DNA of 64,000 nucleotides from Umbilicaria muhlenbergii (taxonomy: Eukaryota > Ascomycota > Lecanoromycetes > Umbilicariales > Umbilicariaceae): contig KK106987.1 of the NCBI GenBank assembly GCA_000611775.1, positions 372,001 through 436,000 on the forward strand, read 5' to 3'. The notes beneath the pieces were generated by a model that saw only the letters and a list, made by a program, of their open reading frames with translations, did no database searches and was not told the origin of the DNA. Each line of letters begins with the position of its first letter. The first letter of the stretch is position 1. Both the position numbers and the translations under genes were made by a program. Shown here in pieces: positions 23,352 through 61,841 of the stretch.

Positions 23352-25190
23352 TTAATGAGATGATTGTGACTGCTTTCTCTGTACATTTTTAATCTTTCTT
23401 TTTTGATCACTCATTCTCCTTCTGAATTGAGATGCTTTAAAAGAAGAAATCTTGATCAGTGAATGTTTCTGATTGAAAGGTGATGAGCTGAGCTGAAGAT
23501 CATGAGGACAAAGGCACTGCAGATGACTCCTCAACATGAGATCTTTTGTTAAGCTCAGATCCCTCCTCAAGGAATACTTCTGTGAAGTTAACATTTTCAC
23601 TTACAGTTCATAGATCAGCCAGACTGTAAGTTATGAACTGAACTCTCATCACTGATGAACCTTGAGGTAGGGCATTGCTGATAATCACTGATGTAGATAA
23701 GCTGATGTCAGTTGTGACAAGTTCAGAGAACTGATCTCTGTCACTTAAAATCATGATCTTCAGGATGCTCTGCTCATTCCTTGATAATGCTTGATTAACA
23801 CAATTGCAGCTGATGTGATCATCTTCTCTGCATCTTATACACATAATGATTTCACATCCTGAGGTGAACGTCCTGATGTCATTGATGTACAGGTTGTTTA
23901 ATTAATCATTTTCATTATCACCTCCTCTGTTATAATTCTCATCTTCTTTCACAGCTTGATGAGGCGCCTGATAAATGTTTCATGCAGCTGAGATAAGCTG
24001 CTGAGGTGACTGAGATCATTGTGAAGGATAGTAGAGAGCTGAAGTTGAGTACATCAGTACTTGAGTAAATCAGGTCATAGGTGGCTGCTGCTGAGAATTC
24101 AATTAATTTTGATAACCTCACTGAGGCGTGTTTGCTTGGTAGGAGGCTCTTAATGAATTGATTTAAACTGTTGACATATTCTGATGAATCACATCATGAT
24201 AAAACTGAAGTTCTTAAGCTCAGGTGACTTTCTCTTATAAGCAGATGTATTCTGCTTTGATTCTTCATGATTCTTCTGCCACAGTATAAACCTCAAGGAG
24301 GAAGCAGTCTGATGAAACTAAGTTTTAAAGAGCATCTTATTGAACATCAGAGTCTTGAATTCCTCAGGTAAATGCTCTCATCATGATGTTCAACATGACA
24401 GTTTCAAGAGGGGATAAAACAGGTGAGTTTAAAACTGCTGAAGTTAATCTTAAGTGATCTCATCCTCTCACTCAGAATAACAGTTCAGCAGTTCATTTGT
24501 AATAAGTTATCAAGGCCTCATCATCTTGCTGACATAAGTCTGATATTTCTGAGTTGAAATAAACAGCTGAAGCTTCAGAGACTTTGATAAGATATCTCTG
24601 AGTAAACAACATCTTGAACTGTGCCACTGTGTCAGTTGTGAAAGAGGGGGATTTCAGCAGTTCTGTGATGAGAGAGGTGATTTCTGCTCATGCTGCAGCA
24701 TCATCTGCTAGTAGGAGGTTCACAGCCTGCAGGAAGTCAGCTGAATTAATGATGTTAATGCTGAAGTGTTTCTTAAGCTCTCACTCAAGTTTCTTCAGTC
24801 AACGGGTGGCTGACTGTTCATTTTTCCCATTGAATGATCCACAAAGAGCAAAGTCTGAGTCATTATTTATGACTGTCATAATGAAATGTATAGTTGAGGT
24901 AAGTACAGGACTGAATGAGAATAAGAAAGTTAATAAGTGATTTAAGTACTCTGTGAGAGTGCTCAGAGTACTTGTACAAGGTGAAATAAAGAAGACAGGT
25001 TTAAAAAGCTCTCAAAGAAGAGTTATCATTCTATTCTCAGGACTGAAGTTTATTTTGATGATGATGTTCTTTCAAAGGGAAGGGTTTTCAGTTGATAAGT
25101 GATTTCAATGCAGAGTTTTTCATAACAGAATGATATGTTAAAGCCTGTTTCTTTCCTCAAGCTCAAGCAGATTCAGGGATAATGAATATG
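23352..25190 (-). pseudogene. Gyp1 gag
   Basis: It contains an intact-looking zinc knuckle near 23,797-23,841, CIRCREDDHISCNC (CX2CX4HX4C), matching the Gyp2 knuckle at 26,893-26,940. Upstream sequence is broken into several frames by TGA codons but aligns with Gyp2 gag. The start is not defined. Confidence 0.65.
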
Positions 25191-27399: not shown

Positions 27400-30013
27400 A
27401 ACAATAATAATCACCTCATTAATTGAACTCATCAATGAGAACACTGAATTTGTGAATAAGTCAACATCAGTTTAACAGCTCCTCAAGTCTCAAAAGATAA
27501 ACATGACTTGAATGAATTTCTGCATTTAATTCTTGATGATTTATCATGAGCTCAAGCGCCTTCTGACTTATATGTTCAATTGCAAGAAGAAAGGTAAGTC
27601 TTCAGCTGAACACTTTTACACTCAGCAAGAGATGATCAATTCAATTGCAGTGAATGAGAATACTCATTTTCTTAACATGCTCATGAGTGCTGATAAAGCC
27701 TTTCAGATCTCATGCTCAATTTACATTAAAGACAGTGAGTTGACTTTGAACTGTTCTCAGGTGCAAGTGAATCAAGGCTTTAACATGAACATCATTTCAA
27801 CAGTTATGACTAAATAACTGAGGTTGCTGTTTCACTTATTGTCTAATGTGAGTTTTATAAGTCTCATTATGAAGACAGCTGATCATCAGGAGACTTTTTT
27901 GCATCATTAAATTTATTTAAAACTCAGAGTTGAGGATATTTGAAGGCAGATTCATTACTTTATGACTTTAAAGCTTTCATCCTCTATGTTAAGCACAGAG
28001 CACCTCAATTTACTTTTAAAAATTTCATGATTATACTTCATCAATGTCATCATTGAAATCTGAGGTTTGAGAATTGAGATTGATGACTCAGCTGCTGAAG
28101 AAGCTGTATGAGACATCATTAAGTTAAAGTTGATCTTTTCACAGGATCATAATTTATTAATGTATTTTAAAGTTATCCTGACTTCTCAGGTGAAGGATGA
28201 CTCAGATGATGAGAAGTTAAATATAAAGTCTGAGACTGATAATGCTGTGAGCCTGTCAGAGGAAGAGGAGGAGCTTAAGAAAGTTAAATTTAAAAAAAAA
28301 AGTTTTCATTAAATTTTTCACAGAACTTTAAACTGCAAGAGATAACATTATTTAACTCTGTGAAAGTGTACATTGCTTCTGTTGAGAAGATTATTATTCA
28401 TTATTCTGATTTCTTCTGCAGTTATTTTGTGAATTTTACTTTATTATCATCTCCCTCATACTTTTCTGATTATTACACTGAGCTTTTTCATTACATCAGC
28501 CCTTCCTCCTCTTTATTCTTAATTTTGCAGTATCAGTGAACACTCCTCAGATTGCCTCTTCATCTCAATCAGATCAGCTTGAGTGTTGTTAATTCAATGT
28601 CACTGCACATTTCATTCTTTGTTCAGTGTTGATTAATGAAATGCCTTCTATTAAATGATCTTAACAACTATTTTAATTATATTGAACTTCAAGCGTGAGC
28701 TGTGAAGCTGAAAGTTCAATTAAGTAGTTTAATTCTCACTGAAGTAGATGAGTTACAGGTTCTTCAGCTCCTTTATTTTTATCAGCACTTTAATGACATC
28801 AATCTTGATACTCTTCTCTTCATCAACCTCATTGTGCACTGAGCTTGACTTACCTCAAGCATTAAGTCATCCTTAATTAATATGCAGATTTGATGAGCTC
28901 CTCACAAAGAATGATGACTTCAGAAGCTCATACAGGATGATATGTTGAGTGAAATTTATAAAAGAATGCAACATGTCAATGAAGAGTTGTCTGCCTGAAA
29001 TGCTTAAGCTGTGATTATCAACAAAGAGGAAAATCTGAAGCCTACTGATGAGTCAAGGCTCACTTTTGATTACAGCAAGATAAAAGAGAACATGTCAGAG
29101 AGTTATCTTAAGCTTATGTTTAAGATTCACAACTACTTCTCAGACTCAAGACATAAGATGTTTTTTCAAGCTGATATTAAACATGAGTACTTCAGTGTCA
29201 TTCTTCACTCAAAAGATCATCATCTATTCACCTTTACTATCCTGGGAATTGAACAACTTCAGTCAACAAGAATGCCTCAGGGATTTAAGTCAATTGATTT
29301 TACAATATCAGAGCTTATGAACATCATGTTAAGATTAATTCTGAAGTCACATTCAGAGTCATCTTTGATGCATGAGAAGTCTTCAGAACCTGCTTTGATT
29401 ATCTTTTATATGAATGATCTCTTTAATGAATACTCAGACTTTAAATCTCAATTCTTCTTCCTCTGAGATCATTTCTTTTCTTGAATTGAATGAGTCAAAC
29501 TTACCTTATCTTTCTGAAAGCTCAGGTTATTCATGAATCATATTAAAGCTCTTGAGGTGAAGCATTATGTCAGTGAAAAGATTCACATCCTGAATTCATG
29601 AGTTGAAGTCTTAGTCAAGTGGCTGAAGCTTACAAATGTTAAAGGAGTACAGGGTTTCTTAGATGCTGTAAACATAACATGTCACTGAGTGAAGAACTTC
29701 ATCAAGATCACAAGGCCTCTGAATCAGTTGACTGAAAATGCGCCTTGAAGATGAACACAATCAGAGCAACTGTTCTTTAAAATCCTCTGAATAAAGTGCA
29801 TGACCTGAGTTGTTATGCATGACATTAACTGATCTCTGAAAATACACTTCTATACTGACGCATTCAGCTTTGCAGGGGGGTTGATGATCACTTAATTTTA
29901 AAGACTGAACAGCTCTCTTAAGTCAGTGAAAGTTCTCATCATTTATGACACTCTCACTTTCTCAATCACTGAATGAAAGTATCTGATCTACAAACAGGAG
30001 CTATGCATGATAA
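27400..30013 (+). pseudogene. Gyp2 pol, 5' part
   Basis: The stretch contains a protease-like region (27,533-28,100), an acidic linker (28,130-28,312), and reverse transcriptase (29,011-29,466) with ADIKHEYFS, TRMPQG and FYMNDLF (a one-base change from FYMDDLF). It continues into an RNase H start near 29,830 (HFYTDAFSFAGG). It is interrupted at 30,013 by Chr3; the remainder resumes at 52,761. Confidence 0.8.
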
Positions 30014-30303
30014 TGTAAAAGATGAAATGTACAACAGAGCATCATAATGATGTTTGAATGAAATGTTGTAAACAATATAATCATGATGAGGTCAATGCAA
30101 TGATTATATATTTTTTATTTAATGACAAAACTGATTACTGAGAAAGCAGGTTTCTGCATTTCCTTGTGAAGAGTTTTCATTTAATGTCAAGGTGCTAGGC
30201 GCTGAGTCATCATATTTAAGTTATAGTGTCATATCATAGTGTCATATTATAGTATTGTATCATAGTGTCATATTATCATACTATATATATGATGGTCTTA
30301 ACA
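30014..30303 (-). repeat. 3' LTR of Chr3
   Basis: It starts TGTAAAAGATG and ends GGTCTTAACA on +. It aligns with 52,471-52,760 and shares the palindrome-like GGTGCTAGGCGCTGAGTC and a run of TCATATTATAGTGT-type short repeats near the end. Confidence 0.85.
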
Positions 30304-30791: not shown

Positions 30792-31330
30792 ATGATCATG
30801 AACAATGATGAAGACTCATCTTCATCAGGGAAGCCTGTTGATCTTCAGGCTCAATGTGATGAGAAGGGCTCTGAGTTGAAGTTAATGAGTGAAATTGTGA
30901 TGATCAATACCTTCAGAAAGAGACAGGGAAACAGAGTGATAAAATTGATTATTCAGCACTTGAAGAGAATCAGATGTTTACCTTTAAGTGACATCTTCAA
31001 CAGCAGTTCTTGCTCTGTGTGATGTCATGATAATACCTCACTGCTGATGCACATGCAGCAGGGTCATCATCATGAGCATGTGATTTAAAAGAACCTCAAT
31101 CACATGCTGTTAAGTACTGCTTGCTGTGACTCTTGCAGAAAAGCTGAAGTTGATTAATGCTTCATGTCACAAGTCAATTCAGCCTGTGCTCATTGCACAT
31201 CACTTCACAATCTTCATGATTAATGCATGATGAAGCCTCTGATCATCACTGCCTTAATCTCTGAAAGCTCTGATGTTGTTGTTCTGCATGTACATGCTTA
31301 TGATAACAGAAGGAGTGATGACACTCTGTA
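30792..31330 (+). pseudogene. Antisense Cys-cluster ORF of Chr3
   Basis: A plus-strand frame opens at ATG 30,792 (MIMNNDEDSS) and stays in frame to a stop near 31,330, apart from four in-frame stops (one TGA, three TAA). At about 31,120-31,235 it encodes CCDSC...C...CAHC...C, that is C-x2-C-x7-C-x8-C-x2-C followed by a further Cys. It runs opposite to gag-pol of Chr3 and sits between the chromodomain and the 3' LTR. Chr2 and Chr4 carry equivalent frames in the same relative place. The frame ends beside CTGTAAGT, which could be a splice donor rather than a stop. A zinc-binding role is an inference from the Cys spacing. Confidence 0.6.
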
Positions 31331-31339
31331 AGTTTATCT

Positions 31340-32340: not shown

Positions 32341-35300
32341 ATTCTCATGTGTCATCTCACACCTGATCTGTTGATTTTCATTTAATGAGGTATTAAAGCT
32401 TGCTGTCATGAACATGATTATTCACAATTGCCTTGACTTCTCACTCATCATCTCAATTGAGTAGTAGGTCTTTTCCTGTTAATGCAGAAGATACATGATG
32501 TGTGTCTTGAAATGACTTCAATAAAGTGATGTTGAATATGTTATAGATGTTTTGATCCTCTGAGAGATCAAGTTCATATAATGACTGACTTATCACATGT
32601 CATATCATGAATGAGCTGAGCTTTTTTCAATGCAGTTTCTTCATCTGCTTGTTCATTGACACATTCTTTTCATTGATCAGTATTAAATCACCTTCTTTGA
32701 ATGTTATCTTTATTCAGTGCTGATTATAATAGTTTGCATATGTTTCATTAACCTGTCATAGCTGCTTCTGAGCTGTTGTAATTTGATCTTGAAGCTGCTG
32801 TGCATCTGCATAAAGTCTTATTTGTTCATGTGAGTGCTGTATAAACAGTTTACTTAGACTCATCTGAGGATCTCACTTTAAGTTAAGCTGAAAGGGGCTC
32901 TTTTCTGTAGCAGCATGTATGAAGTTGTTGTATGAGAACTTCATGCAGAGTAAAAGCTTCACTCAGTCCTCTTGCTGTTTATTAATGAATATGTGTAAAT
33001 ATGTCTTCAGAGACTGATTCTGCCTCTTTGTTTGACTGTCAGTTTGCAGGTGAAAAGCTGTTGACATGTTATGATGACATCACATGTAAAAGCAGAAGTT
33101 GATTCACTGCTTTAATGTAAACAGCTTGTCTCTATCTGTGATTAAAACTTTTAACATGTCATAATGCTTGATTATGTCTTGAATAAACACTTCAATGAAG
33201 TCAGCAACTGACATTGTCTTCTGTATTGAAATATAATGAGTCATTTTGGTCAACTTATCAACTACAACAAGGATTGAATCTCATGTCATACTTTCATACA
33301 TGCTGCTCAGTGGCAGATCTGTAATGAAGTTCATTGTCATTATATGTCACAGCTCAGTTGAGACTGACAATGAGTTTAATAATCTGTATGATTTGTGATG
33401 AGCTGACTTCATCTTTTGACATTTAACATAATCATGACAGTAACATCATACGTCTCTGACAGCATCAAGTTAATCATAAGATCACTGCATTAATTTTGTA
33501 ATTTTTAACTTCCTGAAATGACCTGCAAAGACATCATCATGAAATTGACTGATCATCACATTGCAGAGGGCAGGGTTCTGTGAAATGTAAATCTTATCAT
33601 CATAATATACAACATCCTCAATTTCCTCTCAATGTTTCATTACATCAGGAAGTATTATTATCATATTTATCATTTCTGACTCAGTCAAGTTGTTTTTATC
33701 CTTGAGAGGGGTAGTTAATCCCTGTTGTACTCATCATATCAAACCGTCTTTTGACTGTTCAGTATGAATTGTATATTCAAGTTGTTTAATAAACATTCTT
33801 GTATAAGCTGTTATCTCCTCATTTAGAGGTGAGTGAGTAGACATGAGCTGAAGCACTTCAACAGTGTCAGCAGAAGAAGTGCTATCCTTAATTTAAAAAT
33901 TAATAAAAACATGACTTGCATCACTGTTCATAATTACAGTGCTTGCTGCATTATTCTTAATTGAGTGCTGCTCAGGTTCTGCATACTTAAGTTTTCTTAT
34001 TCAGTCATGACTTGCTTCTTAAGCATATAGGTCATGAACTGCTGGTGTTTCAGTTGTATCATTAACTTCAATATTCATCATATTGATATGTTCATCACGG
34101 CTTGCTTCTTGAGCATGTAGGTCATAAACTGCTGATGTTTCAGTCATGTCATCAGCTTCAGCATATGTTGTACTGACATATTCATCACAGCTTGCTTTTT
34201 AAGCATGTAGATCATGAACTGCTGATGTTTCAGTTATGCTGTCAACTTCAGTATTCATCATACTGATATTATTCATTATGACAGGTACAACATTCTTTTG
34301 TCATAACTTCTGTCATACTGAGCGTCTTGACTGCAGTGTCATTGCAGCAAGTGTGTATAATTTCTTTTGCATTAACTTATAATCCTTGCTTCCTAAATGA
34401 AAGGACTGTTGCATTATTTCAGCAGCAGTTGAGGTACTGACAGTCTTCAGCAGTTCATAATCAGGTCATTTTGATAAATCATTAACAGAGTTCTTCTTGT
34501 CCTCTTAATATGTAATCTTAAAGTCATACTCAGTGAGCTTTTCAACTCACTTGAGCTGTCTTCATGTGAGGTTTGAGGTAGTCATAAATCAAACAAGGTT
34601 TGTATGATCAGTCAATATGATGATCAGGTGCTTAGCGCCTCAATAGTAATGTCATTAATGATGCATGACTTTCATGATGACAAGGAGCTCTTGCTCATCT
34701 GTATCATATTAAGTCTCAGTATTTAGCAGCTTCTTGCTGTAGTAAGTAATTAATAATCAGTGCAATTGATCATCAACCTTGAAGTGTTGTGTTAAGATTT
34801 CATTAATTGTGAATTCAGAGGCGTCTGTTTCAACCTTCATGAATTTGTTTTCATTGAAATAATGTAGTAATGAAGCACTCATGAAGATCTTCTTCAAAGC
34901 ATTAAATACTTTCAATGTGACTCCTGAGAGTGAAAAAGAGGCAGATATGACATTTTCTTATTATAACTCTCCTCTGACTTGCAGGTTACATGCTGAATAC
35001 TCTGTATTAAATCTTTACAATGAGGTCAGATTGTTCTGCTTTTTTTTAATAATAATCTGTTGAGACTGAAGAGGAGAGAGTGATGTATTCTTAATCTTCT
35101 TTTTATTCTTTTCTGTTTTCAGAAGATTTAACAGTGATGCTGTAATTCATGAATAACCTCTTATAAACCTTTAGAAGAAGTTAATGAAGTTTAAAAAGAT
35201 CTGCAATTCATGAATGTTCTTTAAGGGTAGTCATTCTTCAACAGCGTGAATTCTTTCTGAACTCATATGTATGCTTTCAGTATTAATCTTAAACCTCAGG

Positions 35301-36426: not shown

Positions 36427-36860
36427 TGTTACACCTCTCACTAGATGACACCTGATTGATATGTGTAACAGGTGTACATGTGATACTGCTCATGATGCTT
36501 AAAACATGAGCATCTTAAGCACCTGATCACTCATGATGTTTAAAACATGAGCACCTTGAGCACCTGACTGCTCATGATGCTCAGGGCATGAGCACCCTGA
36601 GCAGTAAAGTTACACATGTAGAGCAGTACAATCACACATGAGTCTTTTAAAATATTATATAATCACAGGTAGATTCATAGTTAGAAGCTCATGCTCAACT
36701 CATGTATTAAATGTAATCTCATAAGTTTACAGCCTTCTAGCTTATTCAAGTCTACATGTGATCAAGTAGTTCATTGAATCAAGCGCTGTGATTAGATGAA
36801 CATTGATATAGTTCATTGAATGATTGTATTATCTTCATCACTATGACATCACCTGTTACA
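36427..36860 (+). repeat. 5' LTR of Chr2
   Basis: It starts TGTTACACCTCTCAC and ends CACCTGTTACA, so it both begins and ends with TGTTACA. From about 36,489 it carries two 41-bp units and one shorter unit built on the palindrome GCTCATG...CATGAGC. Confidence 0.9.
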
Positions 36861-38559: not shown

Positions 38560-41500
38560 ATGCTTACTTTGAAGCCTTCAGGCAGTGAATGACAACAAGA
38601 GTTCACTGCTGCAGCACAGAAAGACATGAGCAACTTTCATGTCTGAGTTAAAGTCAACAGTCAGTCAGCCTGACTGTTAATAAACAGTGACTGCACAGGG
38701 AACTTCATGAACTCAGAATTTGCTGTGAAACATGTAATCTGAACACAGGTGAAGCAGAATCCCTTTAAACTTCAAGAGTTCAATGAGATCTTTATGAGAC
38801 ATAATGATGAATGAGTAAACTGAGAGACGGTTTCTACGCTTATGCATTTAGGTCAACATTGGGAAAAAATTCAATTCAACATAATGAAGTAACCAGGAAG
38901 TGATATAGTCCTGAGAATATCATGACTCTGAGCGGTCAATCTGATGATTGATTGAGCTGAAAATGAGATATACTTTGTTAAGAGTGATAATTTAAATAAA
39001 TTATATTCAGTCCTGAACTCACCTGAAGGTGTGAAGATCTTCATTATGTCAGTGAAAAAAATGCATGAGGAATTGAAGAATCCTGATGCAAAGGTACTGT
39101 GAAGCAGATGAGTCAAAGATGATTAAGACTCTGTTATTAAGTTATTTATTCTTAAAGAATATAAAGACTTTGAGGAATTATTTACAGCTGTAAAGGATCA
39201 GGACGCCTTGCTGAAATATTAAAAATAAGATCATGAAATCAAGATCATGAAAGATTACACATTAATGAAGCAACCTATTTACTCATTGTCATCTCAAAAG
39301 TTAAACACTTTATGAGAATACTTAGAGGAGAACTTATGAAAAGGATTCATACAAGAATCTTAATCTTCAGCTGAATATTCAATACTGTTCATGCCAAAAT
39401 CAGACAGTTCACTTAGGTTGTGTGTTGACTATTGAGCATTGAACAACATTATCATCAAGAACAGTTACCCTTTGCTGCTCATTTCAGAACTGCAGGATCA
39501 GTTTCAGAGAGCATAATGATTTATCAAGTTCAATATTTCAGGAGCCTTCAACCAGATTCATATCAAAGAAGAAGATGAATGAAAAACTGTGTTTCAAATA
39601 AGATTCAGACTTTATGAGTACCTGATAATGCCTTTCAGATTAACAAACACGTCAGTAACTTTTCAGGCTTTTATTAATAACATACTGTGAGAATACTTAA
39701 ATCAGTTCATGATCATCTACCTCAACAACATACTGATCTACTTCAAGATGAAGGAGCAGCATGTTCAGCATGTTTAAAAAGTCCTGCAAGCACTTCAAAA
39801 TGCAGGATTACAGGTAAAGCCTGAGAAAAGTCTTTTTCATTTCAAGGAAGTACACTTCTTAGGCTTCATAATAACATCAGAAGAGTTACAGATGAACTTA
39901 AAGAAGATATAATTTATAATTAAATGATCAGTATTGAAGAACATCAAGGAAGTACAGTCCTTTCTTGAGTTCATGAACTTCTATAAAAAGTTTATCAAAA
40001 AGTATTCAAAAATCACATCACCTCTAATGAAGTTGATTAAAAAAGATCAGAAATTCAAGTGATCACCTGAAGCACAGAAAGCCTTTGATGAGTTGAAGAA
40101 GAGATTCACTTCTTAATTAATTCTCATGAGTTTCAACCCTGAGAAACTTATTACGCTTGAGACGGACGCGTCAGATGAAGCTATAAGAGCATGCATTAAT
40201 CAGTCAGATGATAAGAGACATCTACAGTCAATAACTTTCTATTCAAGAAAGTTTTCAAGTGCTGAAATGAGTTATGAGATACATGACAAGGAGCTGTTAA
40301 TTATTGTTGATGCATTCAAGCAATGACATGTGTATCTGAAAGGACCTAAACATGAGGTTTAAGTATACTCAGATCATAAAAATCTGTTGTATTTCATGAC
40401 AATGAAGGTCTTAAATTGAAGATAAGTACATTAATTGAAAGAATTGTTGCAGTACAATTTCAAGATTCATTATTAAAAAGAATCAGAGAATGTCAAAGTG
40501 AATGCTCTCAATCAATGAGCTGATTACTTGCAAGATAAATCAATCATCAGTCATGTTATCCTCTGAGAGAATGAGCAAGAGGACATGTCTTTCAATAAAC
40601 AGTTCAACTTCATCATACAGGTAGAGGATAACATTTTTGAAAATGAGATTCAAAAAGTGTTGAAGAATGATAAATTAACACAGCAGGTTCTTCAGAATAT
40701 TAAAAATCATGAAAGCTTTAAAAAGAAGAAAGGTTTACTACTTTTTTAAAACTTAATTTATGTTTCTATTAATCTTCAACAGAAGTTAATAGAGGAAAGT
40801 CATTTCAACAAGATGCATGATCATCAAGGAATTGACAAAATGATAGAATGACTCACAAGAACATATTACTTCTCACATATAAAAAAGAAGATTGAAGAGA
40901 TCATTCAAAAGTGCAACATCTGCTGAAGAAGCAAAGCAGATCAACATAAGTCATATGATTTACTTAAATCATCAAAGACATCATCAAGATCATGAGCAAG
41001 CATCACATTAAACTTTGTAATTAAGTTATCAAGGTTGAAAGAACCCCTGATGAAAGCAGTTTATAATTTGATATTGATTATCACTGACAGACTTATGAAG
41101 TACGGATACTTCATACTTTACAATGAAGCATCATCAGCAGAGGAACTCACATATATGTTTTTAAAAATTATAGCAGTCAATCATGAACTGCTGAAAGAGA
41201 TAATCTCTGATAAAGATAAACTCTTCACCTTTAAGTTCTGAAAATCATTAATGAACCAGTTGAGGATTCATCACAAGTTGTCAACATCATATCATCCTCA
41301 GACGGATGAACAGACAGAATAATTAAATCAAATTATGAAACAATACCTGTGATGTTACATTAATTATCAGCAAATTAATTGAGTAGAACTCTTACCAATA
41401 GCTCAGTTAACATATAATTCAGCAGCAACAGAGACAACTGAAGTATCATCATTCTACATCAATTACAGTTTCAACCCGGCTATGAATGAGGCCAGGAGGC

Positions 41501-42060
41501 TAATAATGATAGCACAAAAAGCAAGAATATAAGTGAATCACCTCAAGGACCTGCATGAAATGTTGTAAAAGAACATCAAATTCACCTCAGAAAGATCAGT
41601 GATATATTATAATAAAAAAAGAGTTAAAGAATCTACTTTTAAAGAAAGAAATAAAGTATACCTCCTGTGTCACAATATCAAGACAAAGTGACTTAGCAAT
41701 AAATTGAATCACATGAAGTTGAGACCTTTTCAAATTGCAAAAACTAAGAGAAGCGTCAACTATGAGCTTGAGCTTTCACTCACTATGTGAATACACTCAG
41801 TATTCCACATATCACTACTTGAACCAGCAGACCCGGAAATGCCAATACAAGAAAAATCATCAGAGATCAACTCAGAGAGTCAAGATGCTGAATTCAAGGT
41901 AGAAGAAATTCTAAATCAGCAAGACATAAATGATGAATCACACTACTTGATCAAATGAAAAGGATATGACAGTGAAGGAAACACATGAGAGTCAGAGGAA
42001 AATCTCACTCATTATGCAGTGAAACTGCAGCAGTTTCATCAAAGAAACCTGCAGGAAGTC
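38560..42060 (+). pseudogene. Chr2 pol with chromodomain
   Basis: The protease active site is degraded near 38,670 (INSDCTGNF). RT spans about 39,300-39,950, with catalytic YLDD changed to IYLNNILIY near 39,715. RNase H is open at 40,126-40,326 (LETDASDEA, SAEMSYEIHDKELL). The integrase zinc-binding HHCC region is near 40,800-40,930 and its core is open at 41,035-41,241, with YHPQTDEQTE after it. The chromodomain lies at about 41,899-42,045 (VEEILNQQDIND, YLIK-stop-KGYDSEG), its two Trp codons now TGA. The order PR-RT-RH-INT-CHD is diagnostic of chromoviruses. Confidence 0.9.
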
Positions 42061-42591
42061 AGTTCACATCATTGAAATTAAAAGCCTCAAGCGCAAGAAA
42101 GTTGAGTGAAGGCTTAATAAAAGAATCAGCAGTTACAGCAGTTGCATGCTCATTCACCTTCAACTCTTCAATGTTCTGAAGTTCAGTACAGATCAAGTCT
42201 GACTGCTTCTTTCTCAGAAAAGTGATTTGTTTGTGAAGTCTTTCTTTCTTCACTCTTATCTTTCACTTTTGTGTCATGACGGCATCCTTTTCCTTTTTTA
42301 AGTGATGAATCTTCACACTCACCTTGTTGATCTCCTTCAGAGATATGAACAAGTCACAAGAGATGCTCAGCTAAACACAGGTGCTGCATTTATCATAATC
42401 ATTCAACATCTTGCACTTCTTGTCATCAGTTAAACAGTGATTACATGTTCACATGACAACCCTCCTGTTCTCAGTGATCAAATCAGTCAAATGAGAATGA
42501 TGAGAAGTAGATGACTTCTTCTTTCTGATACTGAATGAAGGCATGAGGAAGGTTGAGTTTTCAAGGATGAAAATGTTGAGAGAGGAGCTAA
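42059..42591 (-). pseudogene. Antisense Cys-cluster ORF of Chr2
   Basis: On - a single frame (open apart from three stops) runs from the 3' LTR region down to a stop at 42,059, antisense to pol and directly abutting the chromodomain end. At about 42,447-42,355 it encodes TCNHCLTDDKKC then KCSTC and SCD: C-x2-C-x6-C-x8-C-x2-C-x6-C. A charged coiled-coil-like part follows (KKERLHKQITFLRKKQSD; 42,253-42,180), then a Leu/Ala/Phe-rich tail. The segment before the cluster (ENRRVVM-stop-TCNHC) and the coiled coil after it resemble a multi-copy family of uncharacterised ascomycete proteins that I recall but cannot name. Chr3 and Chr4 have positional equivalents. Confidence 0.7.
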
Positions 42592-43025
42592 TGTTACACC
42601 TCTCATTAAACAGTACCTGGTTGATATGCATAGCAGGTGTACATGTGATACTGCTCATGATGTTTAAAACATGAGCACCTTGAGCACTTGACTGCTCATG
42701 ATGCTCAGGGCATGAGCACCTTGAGCATTCAATCACTCATGATGCTCAGGGCATGAGCACCCTGAGCAGTAAGATTACACATGTAAAGCAGTACAATCAC
42801 ACATGAGTCTTTTAAAGTATTATATAATCACAGGTAGATTCATAATTAGGAGCTCATGCTCAACTCATGTATTAAATGCAATCTCATAGGTCTACAGCCT
42901 TCTAGCTTATTCAAGTCTACATGTGATCAAGTAGTTCATTGAATCAAGCGTCATGATTAGATGAACATTGATATAATTCATTGAATGATTGTATTATCTC
43001 TGTCACTATGACATCACCTGTTACA
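42592..43025 (+). repeat. 3' LTR of Chr2
   Basis: It is nearly identical in length and layout to the 5' LTR, with the same palindromic units (about 42,650-42,765). It is preceded by a purine-rich tract. The antisense open frame can be read into this LTR as far as 42,736, so the LTR could supply its promoter or first codons. Confidence 0.9.
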
Positions 43026-43475: not shown

Positions 43476-43703
43476 TGTAAGACTATAGCGTCCCTTACTA
43501 GAAAGAGAAGTATAGTTGAGGTATGTGACAGCATGAGATATAAATGTATAAAGATTATATGATCCTATTTATATAAAACTAATAACTAAGGAATCAAGGT
43601 GAGATTAAGCAGTGCAGAGTTTTCATGTAACTCACTAACACTGTCAAGTCACTGATAAGGTGCATGCCTTATGTGAGTCTCAGATTGTCATTAACTCATG
43701 ACA
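43476..43703 (-). repeat. 3' LTR of Chr4
   Basis: It aligns with 50,082-50,309 at equal length; the shared core CCCTTACTAGAAAG and AACTAATAACTAAGG make the match unmistakable. Differences are nearly all transitions. Confidence 0.9.
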
Positions 43704-44148
43704 ATTATCTCCCCTCTATACAGCAGCCCTTCAGCGCAGAAAGGTAAGTGACTGTTAAAAAGCTCAGTTAACAGTTGAAATGATGACACAGTGTCAACAT
43801 TGATTAAGTGAGATGATAATGAGGTGAGCTTGTCACATGACAGTGAAAACCCTGAGGAGTGAAGAGGCAGCAGCAGAGTCATGACAGCATAAGCATGACA
43901 ACATTATAATAATGTAATTAAGAGCTCAGGTGATGATATCATAATAAGAGTTTCAGAATATAAATACTGTCAACTCCTCAGCCTTCTGTCATCAACTTTT
44001 GTCAGAGCAGTGATTTATCATCACAACATCATCAATGCATCCTCAAGATGCATCATTTTCATCACTGCAACATCAGTCATTATGCCTGTAAGTCAGAGAA
44101 GCTGACTCCGCAGATGCACTTCTAATGTGAGTTATCATATAATGCTCA

Positions 44149-44826
44149 TTGATTGTCAAGTGCTCTGCTGAACCTCATGTGCATCTTATTGAACCTTTTT
44201 GTCTCTGTTGCTCTCATCACTTCACGGATGATATGACTCAGGTATGTGACATCAGGTTGAATGTCAAGTGCACATATTGCACAAATTTGCATAAAGCTTG
44301 TCTTTTGATAAGTTTAACTTGCTCACTTGTTGCATTTCACTGATGATTCAAGGTTCTCACATGATTTACCTGCAAGGTAAACACCTTCATATGCTTGATC
44401 AATAAAGTTAATATTAATGCTCCCTCACCTGTTCTCCTGACCGCTCTCAAGACGCGTCAAAAGTGTTATAACAAGAAGATTACAATGCATCTTTGTGTTG
44501 TTGACTGTCATCAGAAGCTGTTAAAATTAAAGTTTACTGTCAAGATCAACCTCCTGCTTCTTGAGCAAATCAAATGCATCAACAATGCACTTAAAGATAT
44601 TCTGAATATCATGTGATATTCAGTTTAATCCCCTTCTCTTCACCTCTGACATGATGATTATGAACAGTTAACATGCATTTTATTTTAAAAGCATTTGCCT
44701 GTCATTGTTGATAATGATGATGATGATGATGACAGAGATTTCTCTCCTTTCAAGTCAGAGGAGTCAGAGGAAATGAAGAAGAGTGATGAAGATGAGACAG
44801 AAGATGATGATGATGAAGATGAGTAA
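44149..44826 (+). pseudogene. Antisense Cys-cluster ORF of Chr4
   Basis: A plus-strand frame, broken by a few stops (mostly TGA), runs from about 44,149 to a TAA at 44,824-44,826. Near its start it encodes CLCCSHH, VCDIR and KCTYCTNLHKAC: C-x2-C-x11-C-x7-C-x2-C-x6-C. A basic middle part (44,395-44,616) follows, and it ends in a strongly acidic tail of Asp/Glu runs (44,710-44,823). It is antisense to Chr4 pol and lies between the chromodomain and the 3' LTR. The true start is unclear, as the first in-frame codon is not ATG. Function unknown; a zinc-binding N-terminal part and an acidic tail are all that can be said. Confidence 0.65.
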
Positions 44827-45129: not shown

Positions 45130-48100
45130 CACCTTTTAAGTTCTTTTTTAACACTCATTGATCATATTCTTCTGATCAACCCTTTCATCTCACTTTGTAC
45201 AGGATTTCATTCCTGGATTTTCAGTGATTTAAAATCTCTTCAACTTCATATTCTTCTTCATTGTCAATTAGCTTTGAAGGCAGCAGTAATGATTTAAAGT
45301 TGTCATCAGCTCTGCACTGATATGACTTCAGATAAAAGACATGAAAGACATTATGAATTTAATAAATGAGCAGTAAAGTTAACTTGTAAGCTTGCTTCTC
45401 TATTAAGTCTTCAACCTGAAATGATTTAATGAATTTGTGAGACAGTTTCCTGCTCAGGCGCTTCTGTCATAAGTTTTTCATGAATAACATTATTAAGTCT
45501 CTCATATTATAGGTCTTGAGTTTATGTTTGACATCATAATATTTTGTCTGAGAATTAATTACATTTTCTCATCATTGTGACAGCACTTCTTATATGTCAT
45601 GAAATCATTTCATCTGATCTTTAACTGCAGGTACTTCTTCTTTTCTAAAGTCATTCTTGACTTCAAATCTTACTTTCAGATGATAAGCATACATGACATA
45701 AAAAGAGCTGCACTTTATTGATGCTTGTGTTTCATTGTTGTAAGTGAATTCTGTCAGAGGTAAAAGATTCATTCAGTTGTCTTGTTCATCTGAGTAATAA
45801 CAGTGAAGATAATGTTTTAAGATTTGATTCTGTCATTCTGTCTGTTCATTCATTTGCAGGTGAAAGACAGTGCTTAACTGATACTTCATTCTTAAATAGT
45901 AGCACATTTCTGATCAGAAAGTGCTTGTGAAAATTGATCTCTGATCAGAGACAGCTCCTTTCAATACATTGAATCAGCATATTATTTCCTCATAAAACAA
46001 GTCAGTCAACTCTGTTGCTGTAATCATTTTCATGATTTGAATATACTGAGCCATTTTCATATACTGATTTATAATCATTAAGATCACATCATACACATAA
46101 TCTCTGCACTTACTTGACAGTAAGTCAGTGATAAAATTCATGATGACTTGCTGTCATGATTCTTCTGACTGAGGCAGCGCCTGTAGCTCATCATAAGAAT
46201 GATGTTTAAGCACTTTCATCCTTTAACAGATGTCACATGACACAACATAATCTTTGACATCTTGACTCATATCAATTCAATAGTATTTGCAGTCAATCAA
46301 TTCAAGAGTTCTTTTTACCCTGAAATGCCCTGTCAAGGCATCATCATGATGATGTTTCAAGATCTCTGCCCTTACAGACTCTTCTTTCAGAATGTATATT
46401 TATTCCTCATGAAATAAAAGGCCTTCAGAGTCAACCCTTCAAGAACTTTCAGCTTTAGCCTTGCACTTCACTGATGTACAGTCAGCATTGCGTGTCACTT
46501 CTACAAATGAATCATCATTTTGTAGAGTTCAAATCAAATTTCTTAAGAGTAAACTCAAGCTTTCATCAGCTGTTTCATGAATGACAAGATCTCTTATCAT
46601 CACATGTGAAATGAGTTGTTTGCAATCAACAGTTTCAGTGACAGGGTTAAGTTGTTTCACAGTTATGTTATAATCATCATGAGTAAATGTTTTGCTGTCA
46701 CTCCTTCAGCATTTTTTCTGAAGTTTAAGATTTTTAATCTTGATCATTCTCCCTGCCCCTGCAAGCAACTGCCTCACAATAGAGGCATATCTGAGTGAGA
46801 ATATGTTCACAAGAGTGATTAACTTTCTCTGAAGCATTGAGAGTAATTTCTTCATAATTTCACTCACCTCTTCAACATCCCTGTAGTCTGATCACCTTGA
46901 CAGCACGTCAGCAGGGTTGATCTTTTCAGACTGATGCAGAATATTGAAATCAAAAGCAGTGAGTTTCATTGCTCATCATGCTTGTCTGTCATTCAATTCC
47001 TTCACGTTCATAAATCCTCATAAATTGTTATGATCAGTCAATACCTCTATGATATGACAACTGCCTTTGAGGTAGTGTCATCAGTGTTTAAACATCATAA
47101 TGATGACAAGGAGCTCCTGGTCATGAGTTTCATATCAAATCTCTGAAGGAGATAACTTTCTTAATCAGAATGCAACTGAATGTCACTGCCTGTTATTCAA
47201 CAGCTGAGACAGGATGTCAGTGAGTTCAATGATTAACACATCAGTTTTCACCTGTATCTGTAACTTCAGATTGAAGTGAATCAGGATAGATGCTGTCATA
47301 AAGATTTCATGAAGGTGATTAAACACCTTCTTTGCATCACTTGAGAATTTAAAAGGCTTGAACTTCTTTTCATCCTTGCTACCTTTCATAAGGTTTGTCA
47401 AGGGGGCTGCAACTTATGAATAGCACTTAATAAAGCGTCTATAAAAGTTCACAAAGCTCAAGAAGACTTGTACTTTCTGAAAAGTTCTTGATACTGATCA
47501 GTCCTGTATGATGTTCACTTGTCACAGATTCATGACTACGCCTTCAGTTGTAATAATAAACTCTAGAAATTTCACCTTGATAATGAAGAATTCACACTTC
47601 TTAAAGTTCACATAAAGTTGAAATCAACAGAGTCAGTTTAACACCTGCTTAACATGCTCTCAGTGTTGCACTGATGATTCTGAGTATATAAGAATGTCAT
47701 CTAAATAGACAACACAAAAGACATTCACAAGCCTTGTTAATGCTCAGTTGATGTAAGCCTGAAACATAGCTGAAGCGTTGACCAATCTGAAAGGCATGAT
47801 TATATACTCAAAGTGACTGTAATGCATGTGAAACACTGTTTTTCACTCATTACCCTCCTTGATGTGAATATGATGATAAGTGTTCTTCAAATCTAGCTTC
47901 ATAAATAGCTTGACTTCATTAAGCTGATTCAACATTTCATTTATAAGAGGTAACAGGTGCTTGTTCTTGATGATCATCTTATTCAACTTCTGATAATTAA
48001 CACATAACTGCAGCTCTTCATCTTTCTTTAAAACAAAAAGAATGAGTGCTCCTGCAGGGCTCATGAAGTGGTGAATTCAATCTTTCATTAAGGTGTTGTT

Positions 48101-50081: not shown

Positions 50082-50309
50082 TGTAAGATTATAGCATCCC
50101 TTACTAGAAAGGGAAGTATAGTTGAGGTATGTGACAGCATGAGATATAAATGTATAAAGGTTATATGATCCTATCTATATAGAACTAATAACTAAGGAAT
50201 CAAGGTGAGATTAAGCAGTGCAGAGTTTTCATGTGACTCATTAACACTGTCAAGCTGCTGATAGGGTGCATGCTTTACATGAGTCTCAAATTGCCATTAA
50301 CCTGTGACA
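50082..50309 (-). repeat. 5' LTR of Chr4
   Basis: It is the partner of 43,476-43,703. It is followed on + by the TTGCA target duplication and then resumed Chr3 gag sequence. Confidence 0.9.
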
Positions 50310-52440: not shown

Positions 52441-52470
52441 CGTTCACCTGAAGGTACTGAGTGATCAGTA

Positions 52471-52760
52471 TGTAAAAGATGAAGTGTACAACAGAGCATT
52501 ATAATGATGTTTGAATGAAGTGTCATAAACAATATAATCATGATGAGGTCAATGCAATGATTATACATCTTTTATTCAATGACAAAACTGATCACTGAGG
52601 AAGCAGGTTTCTGCATCTTCTTGTAAAGAGTTTTCACTTGATGTCAAGGCGCTAGGCGCTGAGTCATCATATTTAAATTATAATGTTGTATCATAGTGTC
52701 ATATTATAATGTCATATTATAATGTTGTATTATTATACTATATATATAATGATCCTGACA
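52471..52760 (-). repeat. 5' LTR of Chr3
   Basis: It is the partner of 30,014-30,303, beginning TGTAAAAGATG and ending GATCCTGACA, followed by the GATAG target duplication. Confidence 0.85.
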
Positions 52761-55651: not shown

Positions 55652-56680
55652 TTATAACGCCAGAAATTCCTTGATTCTTGAGATCCCTTGTAAATCCCCC
55701 TCCGCTGTCTCGTTCAGCGCATTGTCGACCCAATCCGGCGAGTAGCCACCACCAAAATCTATTACCCAAGCGTTTCCCCTGTCGTCAATCAAGACATTAT
55801 CTGGCTTTACGTCCCCCCAGATAAGTTCCATACTATGCAGTTGTTTGATCGTGTTCTGGATCTGCCGTATCCACCTCTCCCGAACCGAGTGCGACGCACC
55901 GTTCACCGCGTCCCGCAGAGTCTCTTGGTGTTCGATGTATTCAAGAAGAAAGCCCATTATTGAGACTCCATCGCTCCATTCTACGAGTCCTACAAGCTTT
56001 GACACGTGCAGCTCGTCGGAAAAATGACGATCCCTGATGCGGAGTAGCGTATGGAGCTCACGGGTGAAAGAGCCTCTTTCAAACGCCGCTTTGAAGAAGA
56101 ATTGACGCCCATCATCCTTCACACAGACAGCTTTGGGAATTGTGCAGAACTCCTCATCAAGAGGGTCTGGTCCGGGGAGAATTTCCAGCTGAGACGCCTT
56201 CATACGGGGTACATCTTGAAGGAGTTTTGTTGATACAGTCCGGTCAGATAATGAGACTTTCGGAGTAAGGTACCGTGTCAACGATAAATGATTAGGGCAT
56301 AACTTTGCTTCAAGCCGGCCATTCACATTCACTAATGTGAGGATGAACGTAACTGGATCAAAGTATTCCTCGAGAGTAAGGGTTTTGGCGCTTTCCGTTG
56401 ACCACGCCAATTTCCTGAGGTAAGGAACACATGGCTCCATTATCCATTCTTCAAAAGCTTCCATAGCCGTTGCGTCATCATCCATGAGGTCCCGAAAGTG
56501 CAGAAACTCTTGCTCGAGAGCTGATGTCTTGGTACTGGTTCTCGACTCGAGCGGTTCCCGAAGATTTTCAGACAAGATCTGTATGCAGAAGCGCTTGCCA
56601 TTACACATGACTGCTACCGAAGCATCAAAGTCTCCAAAGCTGATATCGATAACTGTGTAACAAGGCCAGGAATACTCCAT
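55652..56680 (-). CDS. Kinase-like protein with atypical catalytic loop
   Basis: A 342-codon frame starts at a true ATG (MEYSWPCY). The C-terminal half has kinase-fold motifs: an FKAAFERGSFTRELHTL segment in the Lys/Glu region, LLEYIEH hinge, QLHSMELIWGDVKPDNVLI catalytic loop near residues 280-298 with Trp-Gly in place of His-Arg before the catalytic Asp, and WVIDFGGG in the metal-binding position near 307. Such WGD/DFGGG kinase-like proteins are common and mostly uncharacterised in filamentous ascomycetes. The frame ends soon after DFGGG, so the usual C-lobe is short. A downstream exon cannot be excluded. GC-balanced and unmutated. Confidence 0.8.
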   Translation of the reverse strand: MEYSWPCYTVIDISFGDFDASVAVMCNGKRFCIQILSENLREPLESRTSTKTSALEQEFLHFRDLMDDDATAMEAFEEWIMEPCVPYLRKLAWSTESAKTLTLEEYFDPVTFILTLVNVNGRLEAKLCPNHLSLTRYLTPKVSLSDRTVSTKLLQDVPRMKASQLEILPGPDPLDEEFCTIPKAVCVKDDGRQFFFKAAFERGSFTRELHTLLRIRDRHFSDELHVSKLVGLVEWSDGVSIMGFLLEYIEHQETLRDAVNGASHSVRERWIRQIQNTIKQLHSMELIWGDVKPDNVLIDDRGNAWVIDFGGGYSPDWVDNALNETAEGDLQGISRIKEFLAL

Positions 56681-59895: not shown

Positions 59896-61841
59896 TCAGA
59901 CAGATTGGTTCTCTGCTTTGGCTTTGAGCTTCGTGTACCACCGTGTACGAACCGACCCGGGGGTCCTCTCTGGAAATTGATTGAAAATCAAGTCCCAGGG
60001 CTGGTCGGCCTTTTTCAACCGGAGTAGTCGTTCCTCCTCTAATCGTGACCAAGGAGTATTCTTCTTGGCATTCCACCGTTCATTATCGATTGAGTCCGCA
60101 TCGCTCGAACATTCATCACTGTCGCCGAAATCACTAGCGACTGGATAGATGTCCCTGGTGTTCGCATGCTGGTTCTTCGGCGAGACCACCGGCTTGACCA
60201 GCTTCGGTTGGGCGTGTCGAGCCGCTGGAATGATCTCTTCATCGAAGTGTATATCGTTTGATTGTGCCGGTGATTGTCGCGTGGTTGGTGTAGCTTTGGC
60301 GCAGCTATCGCAGTAATAAAGACCAGTTACCAGCCATGCGCCTGAAGAAGCCCGTTTGATACTGATATCATCCAGCTTCGGTGCGCCGCCGAGGATACTC
60401 TCCAGTAGCACGAGCGGCTGGCTGCTCCTGGAATTTGAGGGCACGTTTGGAAGACCATAAATGGCCGCTGACAGGTCAAACTCGTTCGGCGAGTGAAGCT
60501 GGAGGCTGATGTGAACTGCCCTCTGTTGTACATCCCCACCGCCGACCGATGACTTCGTCGCGTTTGTGAAAGGTTGATATGGCAGAGGCTGAGGGCAGGA
60601 TTGGGAGGGACTGGACTCGGAATCGGGCTCGATCTCGGAGTCGGAGGCGTCGATTGCTTGGCGCATGGTCTTGAGCTGCGTCTTTGGACGACATCGTCTC
60701 CCTAGCAGACGAAAAGATCCCTTTCGCCTTGAGAGACTGATCACGGTCTCTTTAACAATGTCAATGTCTCCGCGCTCATCATCCTCCACCTCTTGGTTAT
60801 CATCCTGCCTTGTACAGCCATCACCGCCCTCTATCGGTTCCTGCACACCATCTTCCCGGCCATCAGACTCTTTGATTGAAGGAGGTGCCAAGTATGCCGG
60901 GCTATCTGGTCGTCCATTGTCCTGATCGTGGTCTTGTCGGACTTCTCTGCACTCATCTCCATGAGAAAGGTTGTTACTGCTGGTGAACTTATTGTAGTTC
61001 TCGGCGTTATTGCTGCTGTGGTCGTCGACGACATTGACGATGTCGTCCGGACTTGTGCATAACTTGGTTGGATTGGGTTCAGGAATTGCTGCCTCGTCGG
61101 GAGTCGAATTGTCGTCAGGGCAAGGGGGGAGTTTATAGCGTTCCGCGAGGAGCGAGTTGTCGAGTGGCGGTCCCACGGGCGTACTCCAAATTTGGCTGTC
61201 GAGCACGTCGTGGGGAGAGGAGCCGGGGCATAGTCGCTTTGCAGGTGGTGAAGGCGACGCGTCAACCTGGTTAATTCCGCGTTTAAGGCCGTTCTCAACC
61301 GCCGGGAAAGTATCTGTATCAGGGGTTAGGACAGACCCGTAATCGATTCTGTACGCCTACCTTGGTCCCCCCGTGCCTCCGGAATATCACCAACTGTATT
61401 CTTCGCGTTAGGCTTTAAATCGCGTCCGCTTTGATTTGCAGATGATACTGTCTTTGACCAGTCGGCCGGGTTATCAGCCCACAGATCATCCAGATTCGCA
61501 GCCGAAGTCGGCCTGTCGGCAATCGAGTCATCAAAGATAGCCTCCAATAACTCCGGACTGAAGGTCGCCGCATCAGCTCCGAGGGGCTGTCGAGAGGGCT
61601 GGTAAATTCCATGGCTGCTCTGCTCCCCACCGCCAAATTCGGGTTCTAGGCAGAGATCGAGTACGGACCGCCTGTCGACCTCGGCTTGCTGGTCGGCTTG
61701 CTGACTGGTAGTGTATAAAGGACGCTGCTTGGGGATACGTCGAGACTTCGGCGCTATGGGAGGGCCATCATAAGTTACGAAGTGCGGAGATACGCCTATC
61801 TGAGGAGGAGGCACACGAAATGTACTGAAAACGGCTGACAT
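59896..61841 (-). CDS. SANT/Myb-like domain protein, apparently intact
   Basis: Two exons: 61,841-61,361 and 61,313-59,896, joined over a 47-nt intron (61,360-61,314) with GTAGGC start, CTAAC branch site and ACAG end. The join keeps frame and gives about 632 residues. The C-terminus carries a SANT/Myb-like motif (PWSRLEEERLLRL, PWDLIFNQFPERTPGSV, RTRWYTKL), roughly residues 580-625, with the spaced Trp residues expected of this fold. The remainder is low-complexity, acidic and Ser/Pro-rich. Role unknown; DNA or chromatin binding is inferred from the motif. A heavily mutated second copy lies at 10,974-12,623 plus 4,343-4,705, and a decayed tandem copy lies just downstream. Confidence 0.8.

Follow-up and report, generated by a model that had tools for sequence, protein, structure and literature searches.

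An antisense gene for a predicted Zn2Cys6-like protein between the chromodomain and the 3' long terminal repeat of chromoviruses in Umbilicaria muhlenbergii

The DNA analysed here (the window) is a stretch of 64 kb of Umbilicaria muhlenbergii, C7:372001-436000 in a genome of 34.8 Mb and 7 contigs. It contains the retroelements Chr2, Chr3 and Chr4, of which Chr2 and Chr4 are nested inside Chr3, between both Chr3 long terminal repeats (LTRs). Chr2 and its relatives belong to the chromoviruses, which are Ty3/gypsy elements with a chromodomain, and have a third gene, antisense to gag-pol, in the interval from the chromodomain to the 3' LTR. This gene, its predicted product and its possible counterparts in Chr4 and Chr3 are the subject of this report. 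The features of Chr2 are listed below in window coordinates; ORF stands for open reading frame.

36427..36860, + strand: 5' LTR (434 bp), 89.6% identical to 42592-43025
40927..42075, + strand: 3' part of pol, with integrase pieces and chromodomain, broken by stops
41893-42045, + strand: chromodomain (Pfam chromodomain match at C7:413893-414045, E 7.5e-8)
42005..42454, - strand: antisense ORF with a six-cysteine cluster, a long helix and a tail ending in LHNE
42148..42340 (approximate limits), - strand: part corresponding to the family's long coiled-coil-like helix
42356..42445, - strand: six-cysteine cluster, each cysteine kept in 28-30 of the 30 copies examined
42455..42736, - strand: open frame upstream of the cysteine cluster, running across a polypurine stretch into the 3' LTR
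42592..43025, + strand: 3' LTR, containing a 41-bp tandem repeat

The Chr2 ORF starts at about 42454 and ends with a stop at 42005-42007, and at this end it shares about 70 bp with the 3' end of pol, encoded on the opposite strand. The first-pass annotation had placed the frame at 42059-42591, which contains 18 stops when read so; the ORF lies in another frame. The window copy is itself damaged, with in-frame stops beside the putative start, at codons 25 and 61 (one TGA, one TAG) and at codon 129. None of the antisense frames of Chr2, Chr3 and Chr4 is a clean ORF in the window, and all lie within CpG-depleted DNA: the observed/expected ratio of CpG is 0.06-0.11 in the three elements and 1.01-1.06 in two gene regions. 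Transitions are 16 times as frequent as transversions in the pairwise differences among 30 Chr2 copies. The two LTRs of each element are 88.7% (Chr3), 89.6% (Chr2) and 91.2% (Chr4) identical.

All six frames of the window were scanned, stops allowed, for the pattern C-x2-C-x(5-12)-C-x(5-12)-C-x2-C-x(3-9)-C. Four matches were found in the 64 kb, and three of them lie in the slots of Chr2, Chr3 and Chr4 that are antisense to gag-pol and have the chromodomain on one side and the 3' LTR on the other, which is the arrangement claimed by the first-pass annotation. Markov simulations of order 1 and 2 (60 each) gave means of 0.08 and 0.03 matches with a maximum of 1, a chance level that is somewhat underestimated because the pattern was devised post hoc from the three cases. 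The fourth match, at 24628-24708 (+), is not in any of the three slots. The pattern of Zn2Cys6 domains (PF00172) is C-x2-C-x6-C-x5-12-C-x2-C-x6-8-C. Chr2 and its relatives fit this spacing (C-x2-C-x6-C-x8-C-x2-C-x6-C), and in the clusters of Chr4 and Chr3 the first loop is longer and the match inexact.

A 129-residue query from Chr2, in which X replaced stops, was then run against the genome (174 candidates, 150 scored). At least 151 matches exist genome-wide, and the 150 listed represent 148 distinct places. Identities among the matches listed fall roughly at 70-84%, 42-61% and 30-43%, with few in between, and eight of the 150 (seven places) are free of stops. Two stop-free copies, C1:3271-3576 and C5:2479072-2479377, have identical scores, the first lying close to a contig end, and are probably one duplicated segment. 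A Pfam chromodomain search of the genome (508 candidates, 150 scored) gave at least 141 hits. In 118 of the 150 listed ORF matches a chromodomain lies 14-733 bp (median 20 bp) downstream of the ORF, and in all 118 it is on the opposite strand; random placement would give a mean of 0.43 and a maximum of 3 (200 placements). No chromodomain was found within 1 kb upstream of the ORF among the 150 listed matches, and 32 of these have no such downstream hit. Seen from the other side, the ORF is present at 116 of the 141 listed chromodomain hits, host genes included; two of the 25 hits that have no ORF were inspected, and at least one of them is, by eye, a host gene (CHD1-like SNF2). In all 37 Chr2-type loci fetched (36 distinct, as L075 contains the copy of L015) pieces of antisense pol follow downstream of the ORF, and six of the distinct copies are only 35-54% identical. 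In L079 the C-terminus of pol carries a chromodomain that matches PF00385 (Chromo) at E 8.9e-17, together with SH3_Tf2-1.

Three copies with long open frames, L076 (168 codons), L078 (164) and L079 (187), were used to measure the ratio of nonsynonymous to synonymous substitution rates (dN/dS), a check that the first-pass annotation had proposed. Outside the pol overlap, dN/dS was 0.13 between L078 and L079 (bootstrap 0.05-0.30) and 0.31 between L076 and each of them (0.13-0.53 and 0.14-0.57). Control frames gave 1.03-2.41 (forward) and 1.29-2.04 (two reverse frames); the reverse frame with shared third positions gave 0.15-0.42, as expected, and what tells the two apart is that the antisense frame is the one with the database relatives, the cysteines and the fold. 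The ORF is thus under purifying selection among the three open-frame copies. L076 has, by eye, lost its C-terminal end to an insertion. The ORF of L079 reaches into the 3' end of pol, which is open there. A transversion test within the 30 closest Chr2 copies gave no signal. Divergent Chr2 groups differ by 13.1, 9.0 and 16.3 transversions per 100 codons at positions 1, 2 and 3, a weak signal; towards the most divergent group the values are 25.2, 27.9 and 34.3, again weak, with fourfold sites (0.204) no higher than position 2 (0.279). Chance or an artefact of repeat-induced point mutation is rejected as an explanation of the Chr2 ORF on the grounds of linkage, dN/dS and open-frame relatives. The same linkage and selection support the earlier suggestion that it is an antisense accessory gene of a retroelement.

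The state of the DNA around these three ORFs is uneven. CpG is kept around the ORF (0.83-0.95) and is mostly 0.5-1.4 on the side of the ORF and LTR; on the pol side, in 250-bp windows, it falls to 0.00-0.52 in L076, 0.00-0.54 in L078 and, around the pol pieces, 0.00-0.48 in L079. The CpG-depleted stretches on the pol side span positions 1-2000 of L076, 1251-4000 of L078, and 501-1000 and 2251-2750 of L079, and decay ends near the ORF. The chromodomain has two TGA stops in L076, two in L078 and none in L079. An open ORF beside decayed pol can mean either that the ORF is too divergent for repeat recognition or that it is retained in its own right. In the elements of the window the ORF lies between pol and the 3' LTR; L078 and L079 instead have an inverted LTR, which lies just upstream of the ORF (about 400-694 in L078, 3377-3740 in L079), in ORF orientation and inverted with respect to pol. 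No clear target-site duplication was seen at these two inverted LTRs, whose forward promoter would drive the ORF.

A first database search with the Chr2-type protein returned 23 relatives, and a profile search that scored 7993 candidates returned 85 proteins at E<=0.001, almost all of them unnamed ENA proteins. Only one relative carries an organism name, that of the lichen-forming ascomycete Lasallia pustulata (Umbilicariaceae); this relative is 69% identical and is called "Zn(2)-C6 fungal-type" in UniRef. To that extent it fits the statement of the first-pass annotation on similar cysteine-cluster hypothetical proteins in ascomycetes. In an alignment of 20 sequences, C25, C28, C35, N103, I104 and L107 are among the invariant columns, C4 and the motif ELQNIEELE after the helix are near-invariant, and the remaining cysteines are present in most rows. 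Five relatives (P0006, P0008, P0025, P0028 and P0036) have in common a short SLVSFT-like insertion in the helix, possibly a retained intron.

AlphaFold2 models were built from 9 and 20 sequences (mean predicted local distance difference test score 78.7 and 83.3). Both have two short helices, one per CxxC, followed by a long helix of 82 and 75 residues, respectively. When the models were compared with the PDB by Foldseek, Zn2Cys6 domains made up 23 of 25 matches for the 9-sequence model (best E 0.09) and 25 of 26 for the 20-sequence model (best E 0.011, probability 0.99), the last being a chain of the kinetochore complex CBF3; no match passes 0.001. The Zn2Cys6 matches include entries of Leu3, Put3, Gal4, Ppr1, Pho7, Hap1 and AlcR, and 1cld, whose title reads only "DNA-binding protein", was counted with them on our assumption that it is a Zn2Cys6 domain. 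The absence of other folds in the structure libraries carries little weight. Sequence profile searches of the PDB matched Put3 in register at E 0.55 and 0.11, which is not significant, and unrelated coiled-coil chains rank above it (best 0.11 and 0.0089). Pfam Zn_clus (PF00172) matches 6 of 13 family proteins, all of them below the cut-off (best 16.4 bits against 21), and the protein is therefore named Zn2Cys6-like and not filed as a member of PF00172. NCBIfam gave only coiled-coil-type noise, for 6 proteins. Taken together, the predicted fold resembles Zn2Cys6 DNA-binding domains.

Chr4 and Chr3 have a frame in the corresponding slot. Their features are:

43476..43703, - strand: Chr4 3' LTR (partner 50082-50309, 91.2%)
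44092..44826, + strand: Chr4 antisense frame, with cysteine cluster at 44200-44301 and acidic tail at about 44690-44823
45179..45529, - strand: Chr4 chromodomain region of pol
50082..50309, - strand: Chr4 5' LTR
30013..30303, - strand: Chr3 3' LTR (partner 52470-52760, 88.7%)
30792..31331, + strand: Chr3 antisense frame, with cysteine cluster at 31125-31226
32366..32749, - strand: Chr3 chromodomain region of pol
52470..52760, - strand: Chr3 5' LTR

The Chr4 frame has 106 matches in the genome and the Chr3 frame at least 150 (182 candidates, 150 scored). Twenty copies of each were fetched; two Chr3 copies with rearranged flanks (L071 and L075) were dropped, leaving 18, and L048 was dropped from the Chr4 block test, leaving 19. 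Antisense pol lies downstream in 20 of 20 fetched Chr4 loci and 17 of 19 fetched Chr3 loci. In-frame stops were found at codons 64, 65, 155, 159, 166 and 179 of Chr4 in all 20 copies examined, and at codons 76 and 98 of Chr3 in all 18. A continuous ORF is rejected for both because of these fixed stops, and the frames may be spliced. An intron-like stretch spans stops 64-65 of Chr4, with GTAAGT in 2 of 20 copies, CTGAT and AAG. The cysteines are kept in 13-20 of 20 Chr4 copies and 13-18 of 18 Chr3 copies.

Codon constraint was judged by transversions, since CpG decay does not produce them. In two long open blocks of Chr4, the transversion-variable sites at codon positions 1, 2 and 3 number 7, 3 and 21, and 2, 1 and 11 (combined P 2.5e-07 for the excess at position 3, the blocks having been picked after the stops were seen); for the whole frame in 20 copies they number 9, 5 and 33. 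No codon-position bias was found in the short blocks of Chr4 or in its acidic tail (1, 2 and 4). Translation of the Chr4 cysteine block in that frame probably persisted over a long period. The cysteine block of Chr3 has 0, 0 and 3 such sites in 18 copies, too few to judge. When the profiles of the three frames were compared by hhalign, the clusters aligned, Chr2 and Chr4 in register, at E 0.05-0.2; as these values lack significance, homology of the three ORFs is not claimed. No database relatives of the Chr4 frame were found at E<=0.01 among 1243 candidates. The earlier claim that three elements keep the same kind of gene is firm only for Chr2; Chr4 has codon constraint together with fixed stops, and Chr3 varies too little for a judgement.

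The rest of the window contains a further element at 8324-10042 (+), with chromovirus-like reverse transcriptase and integrase pieces, which stops within the integrase at 10042 and therefore cannot reveal whether an antisense ORF was present. Reverse transcriptase pieces of another retroelement family lie at 21293-21748 (-) and 29008-29466 (+); they are 66% identical to each other, and one has an open frame of 152 residues. Host-like genes at 13321-15582 (-), 55652-56680 (-) and 59896-61206 (-) comprise a fungal protein kinase (PF17667, E 4.7e-131), a second kinase-like frame and a Myb-like protein.

What might the Chr2-type gene do? The interpretation that we favour, at slightly better than even chances, is that it is the source of an antisense-encoded, dimeric, Zn2Cys6-like regulator of the element's own LTR, in which the target and the mechanism are inferred. 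Transcription would start from or near the 3' LTR; an antisense promoter within the LTR is plausible because the open frame upstream of the cluster enters the 3' LTR in Chr2 and some relatives (P0005, P0069) have Met codons in that region. The product would be a protein of about 150-190 residues with a Zn2Cys6-like (Gal4-type) cluster, then a single long coiled-coil-like helix and ELQNIEELE; it may bind zinc, dimerise through the helix and enter the nucleus. The dimer would then bind palindromic repeats in the LTR and feed back on the transcription of the element, more likely as a repressor or for copy-number control than as an activator. Possible binding sites are the palindromic units of the 41-bp tandem repeat (2.9 copies) at 42650-42768 in the Chr2 LTR, which lie beside a TATA-like stretch. 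Palindromic LTR repeats also occur elsewhere, as a 42-bp pair in L076 and as inverted GATCGAGG-type repeats in L078 and L079. A search of four upstream regions for CGG-type operators found one CGG-N13-CCG shared by L078 and L079 and others in L076; the window Chr2 copy has no such site, and nothing is general across the four regions. If the fixed stops of Chr4 are intronic, the same regulator role is probable for its frame.

Several observations weigh against a regulator that serves the element, and they have to be set beside the other explanations. A structural or targeting factor, such as a nucleic-acid chaperone, a tether of the integration complex or a nuclear import factor, would suit a small protein with a long helix, and the Zn2Cys6 assignment is statistically weak. 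Against such a factor, the spacing and the predicted fold match sequence-specific Zn2Cys6 domains, and chaperone and tether functions are generally expected from gag-pol; we regard it as unlikely, though as the strongest of the competing accounts of the Chr2-type gene. The gene could instead be a host Zn2Cys6-type gene captured once as a passenger, or its copies could have been adopted by the host, and be kept for the host and not the element. Zn2Cys6 regulators are indeed a fungal host family, L078 and L079 have the inverted LTR, and CpG is kept on the ORF and LTR side and depleted in pol in 3 of 3 open-frame copies, none of which can for that reason be counted as an undamaged element. However, the spared CpG may only reflect ORFs too divergent for repeat recognition, passengers decay, the antisense place is constant in lineages down to 35% identity, and there are relatives from other sources. 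This account seems improbable to us. It is just as improbable, in our view, that what functions is the antisense RNA itself, which would give rise to double-stranded RNA or hinder the expression of gag-pol, with the reading frame being incidental. Such effects of antisense transcripts are seen in LTR elements elsewhere, the idea has been raised for such ORFs (PMC7264820, extract), and the ORF and pol overlap tail to tail; yet dN/dS of 0.13-0.31 outside that overlap, the cysteines and ELQNIEELE conserved over 20 sequences and the third-position bias of Chr4 point to selection on a protein, beside which a transcript could act too.

For Chr4 and Chr3 only, it must further be considered that the frames are not genes and that the cysteine pattern is a chance product or a remnant. 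The stops in 20 of 20 and 18 of 18 copies, the lack of database relatives of Chr4 in the search described, the profile comparisons at E 0.05-0.2, the few variable sites of Chr3 and the unbiased acidic-tail block all speak for this. The motif count far over chance, the codon constraint of Chr4 and the intron-like stretch across its stops 64-65, with GTAAGT in 2 of 20 copies, speak against it, and we hold it to be a real though minority possibility.

The regulator role proposed for the Chr2-type protein has a counterpart in HBZ of human T-cell leukaemia virus type 1 (HTLV-1), a bZIP protein that dimerises by a coiled coil, is expressed from the 3' LTR side and regulates its element. The two proteins are unrelated, HBZ being a bZIP and not a zinc-cluster protein and belonging to a human retrovirus, and the analogy is functional only. 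Small hypothetical proteins with a Zn2Cys6 cluster and a coiled coil are abundant in ascomycetes. It is conceivable, although we rather doubt it, both that fungal chromoviruses encode their own antisense Gal4-type factor that reads LTR palindromes, an equivalent of HBZ on a fungal fold, and that these hypothetical proteins are mostly such regulators, some of them adopted by the host. Fungal annotations may be counting retroelement proteins as host Zn2Cys6 factors; the Lasallia pustulata relative, which may or may not lie in an element, is already so named. With the fungal Zn2Cys6 factors (Gal4-type, PF00172) the Chr2-type protein shares the cysteine spacing and, in the models, two predicted short helices with a predicted coiled coil after them. 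It is unlike them in that its first loop is less basic (by eye), it has no large regulatory domain, it is encoded by a retroelement and it scores below the Pfam cut-off.

Zhao et al. (Virology, 2011) reportedly described Boty-like retrotransposons of Botrytis cinerea with an antisense gene, brtn. Later papers, cited here from extracts, state that Boty has a chromodomain-bearing gag-pol (PMC4227169) and an extra antisense gene located after pol and before the 3' LTR, likewise in Sclerotinia (PMC7264820), that a Monilinia transcript matches BRTN (PMC5987419) and that brtn occurs in BcGypsy1 (PMC8365987). Boty brtn is thus like the Chr2 ORF in being antisense, in lying between pol and the 3' LTR and in belonging to an element with a chromodomain. 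The extracts of the citing papers give no domain for BRTN, and the comparison is by description only; the two proteins may be one family. By description only, too, the Chr2-type ORF may be likened to the plant antisense ORFs Grande gene23, RIRE2, Retand TRP28 and PvRetro13. Nearly all Retand elements carry an antisense ORF with predicted DNA binding, TRP28, which the same extracts report from flowering plants only (PMC11963269, PMC7264820). HBZ, as the antisense protein, is described as localised to the nucleus and as playing a part in the life cycle (PMC11963269, extract). No description of the Chr2-type family was found in the open-licence literature on antisense ORFs combined with fungi, chromodomain or Zn2Cys6, and in a survey of transposons of Umbilicaria pustulata (PMC8773270) a term search met "antisense" only in the reference list. 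According to a review, what the antisense accessory genes of LTR elements do has yet to be established (PMC7264820, extract). Antisense accessory genes as such are therefore already known, and what is new within the literature searched is the protein's Zn2Cys6-like identity, the selection on the gene and its placement across the genome. With a predicted recognisable fold, 148 listed copies that are mostly placed with respect to pol, open frames and measured selection, the Chr2-type gene makes the function of such a gene directly testable.
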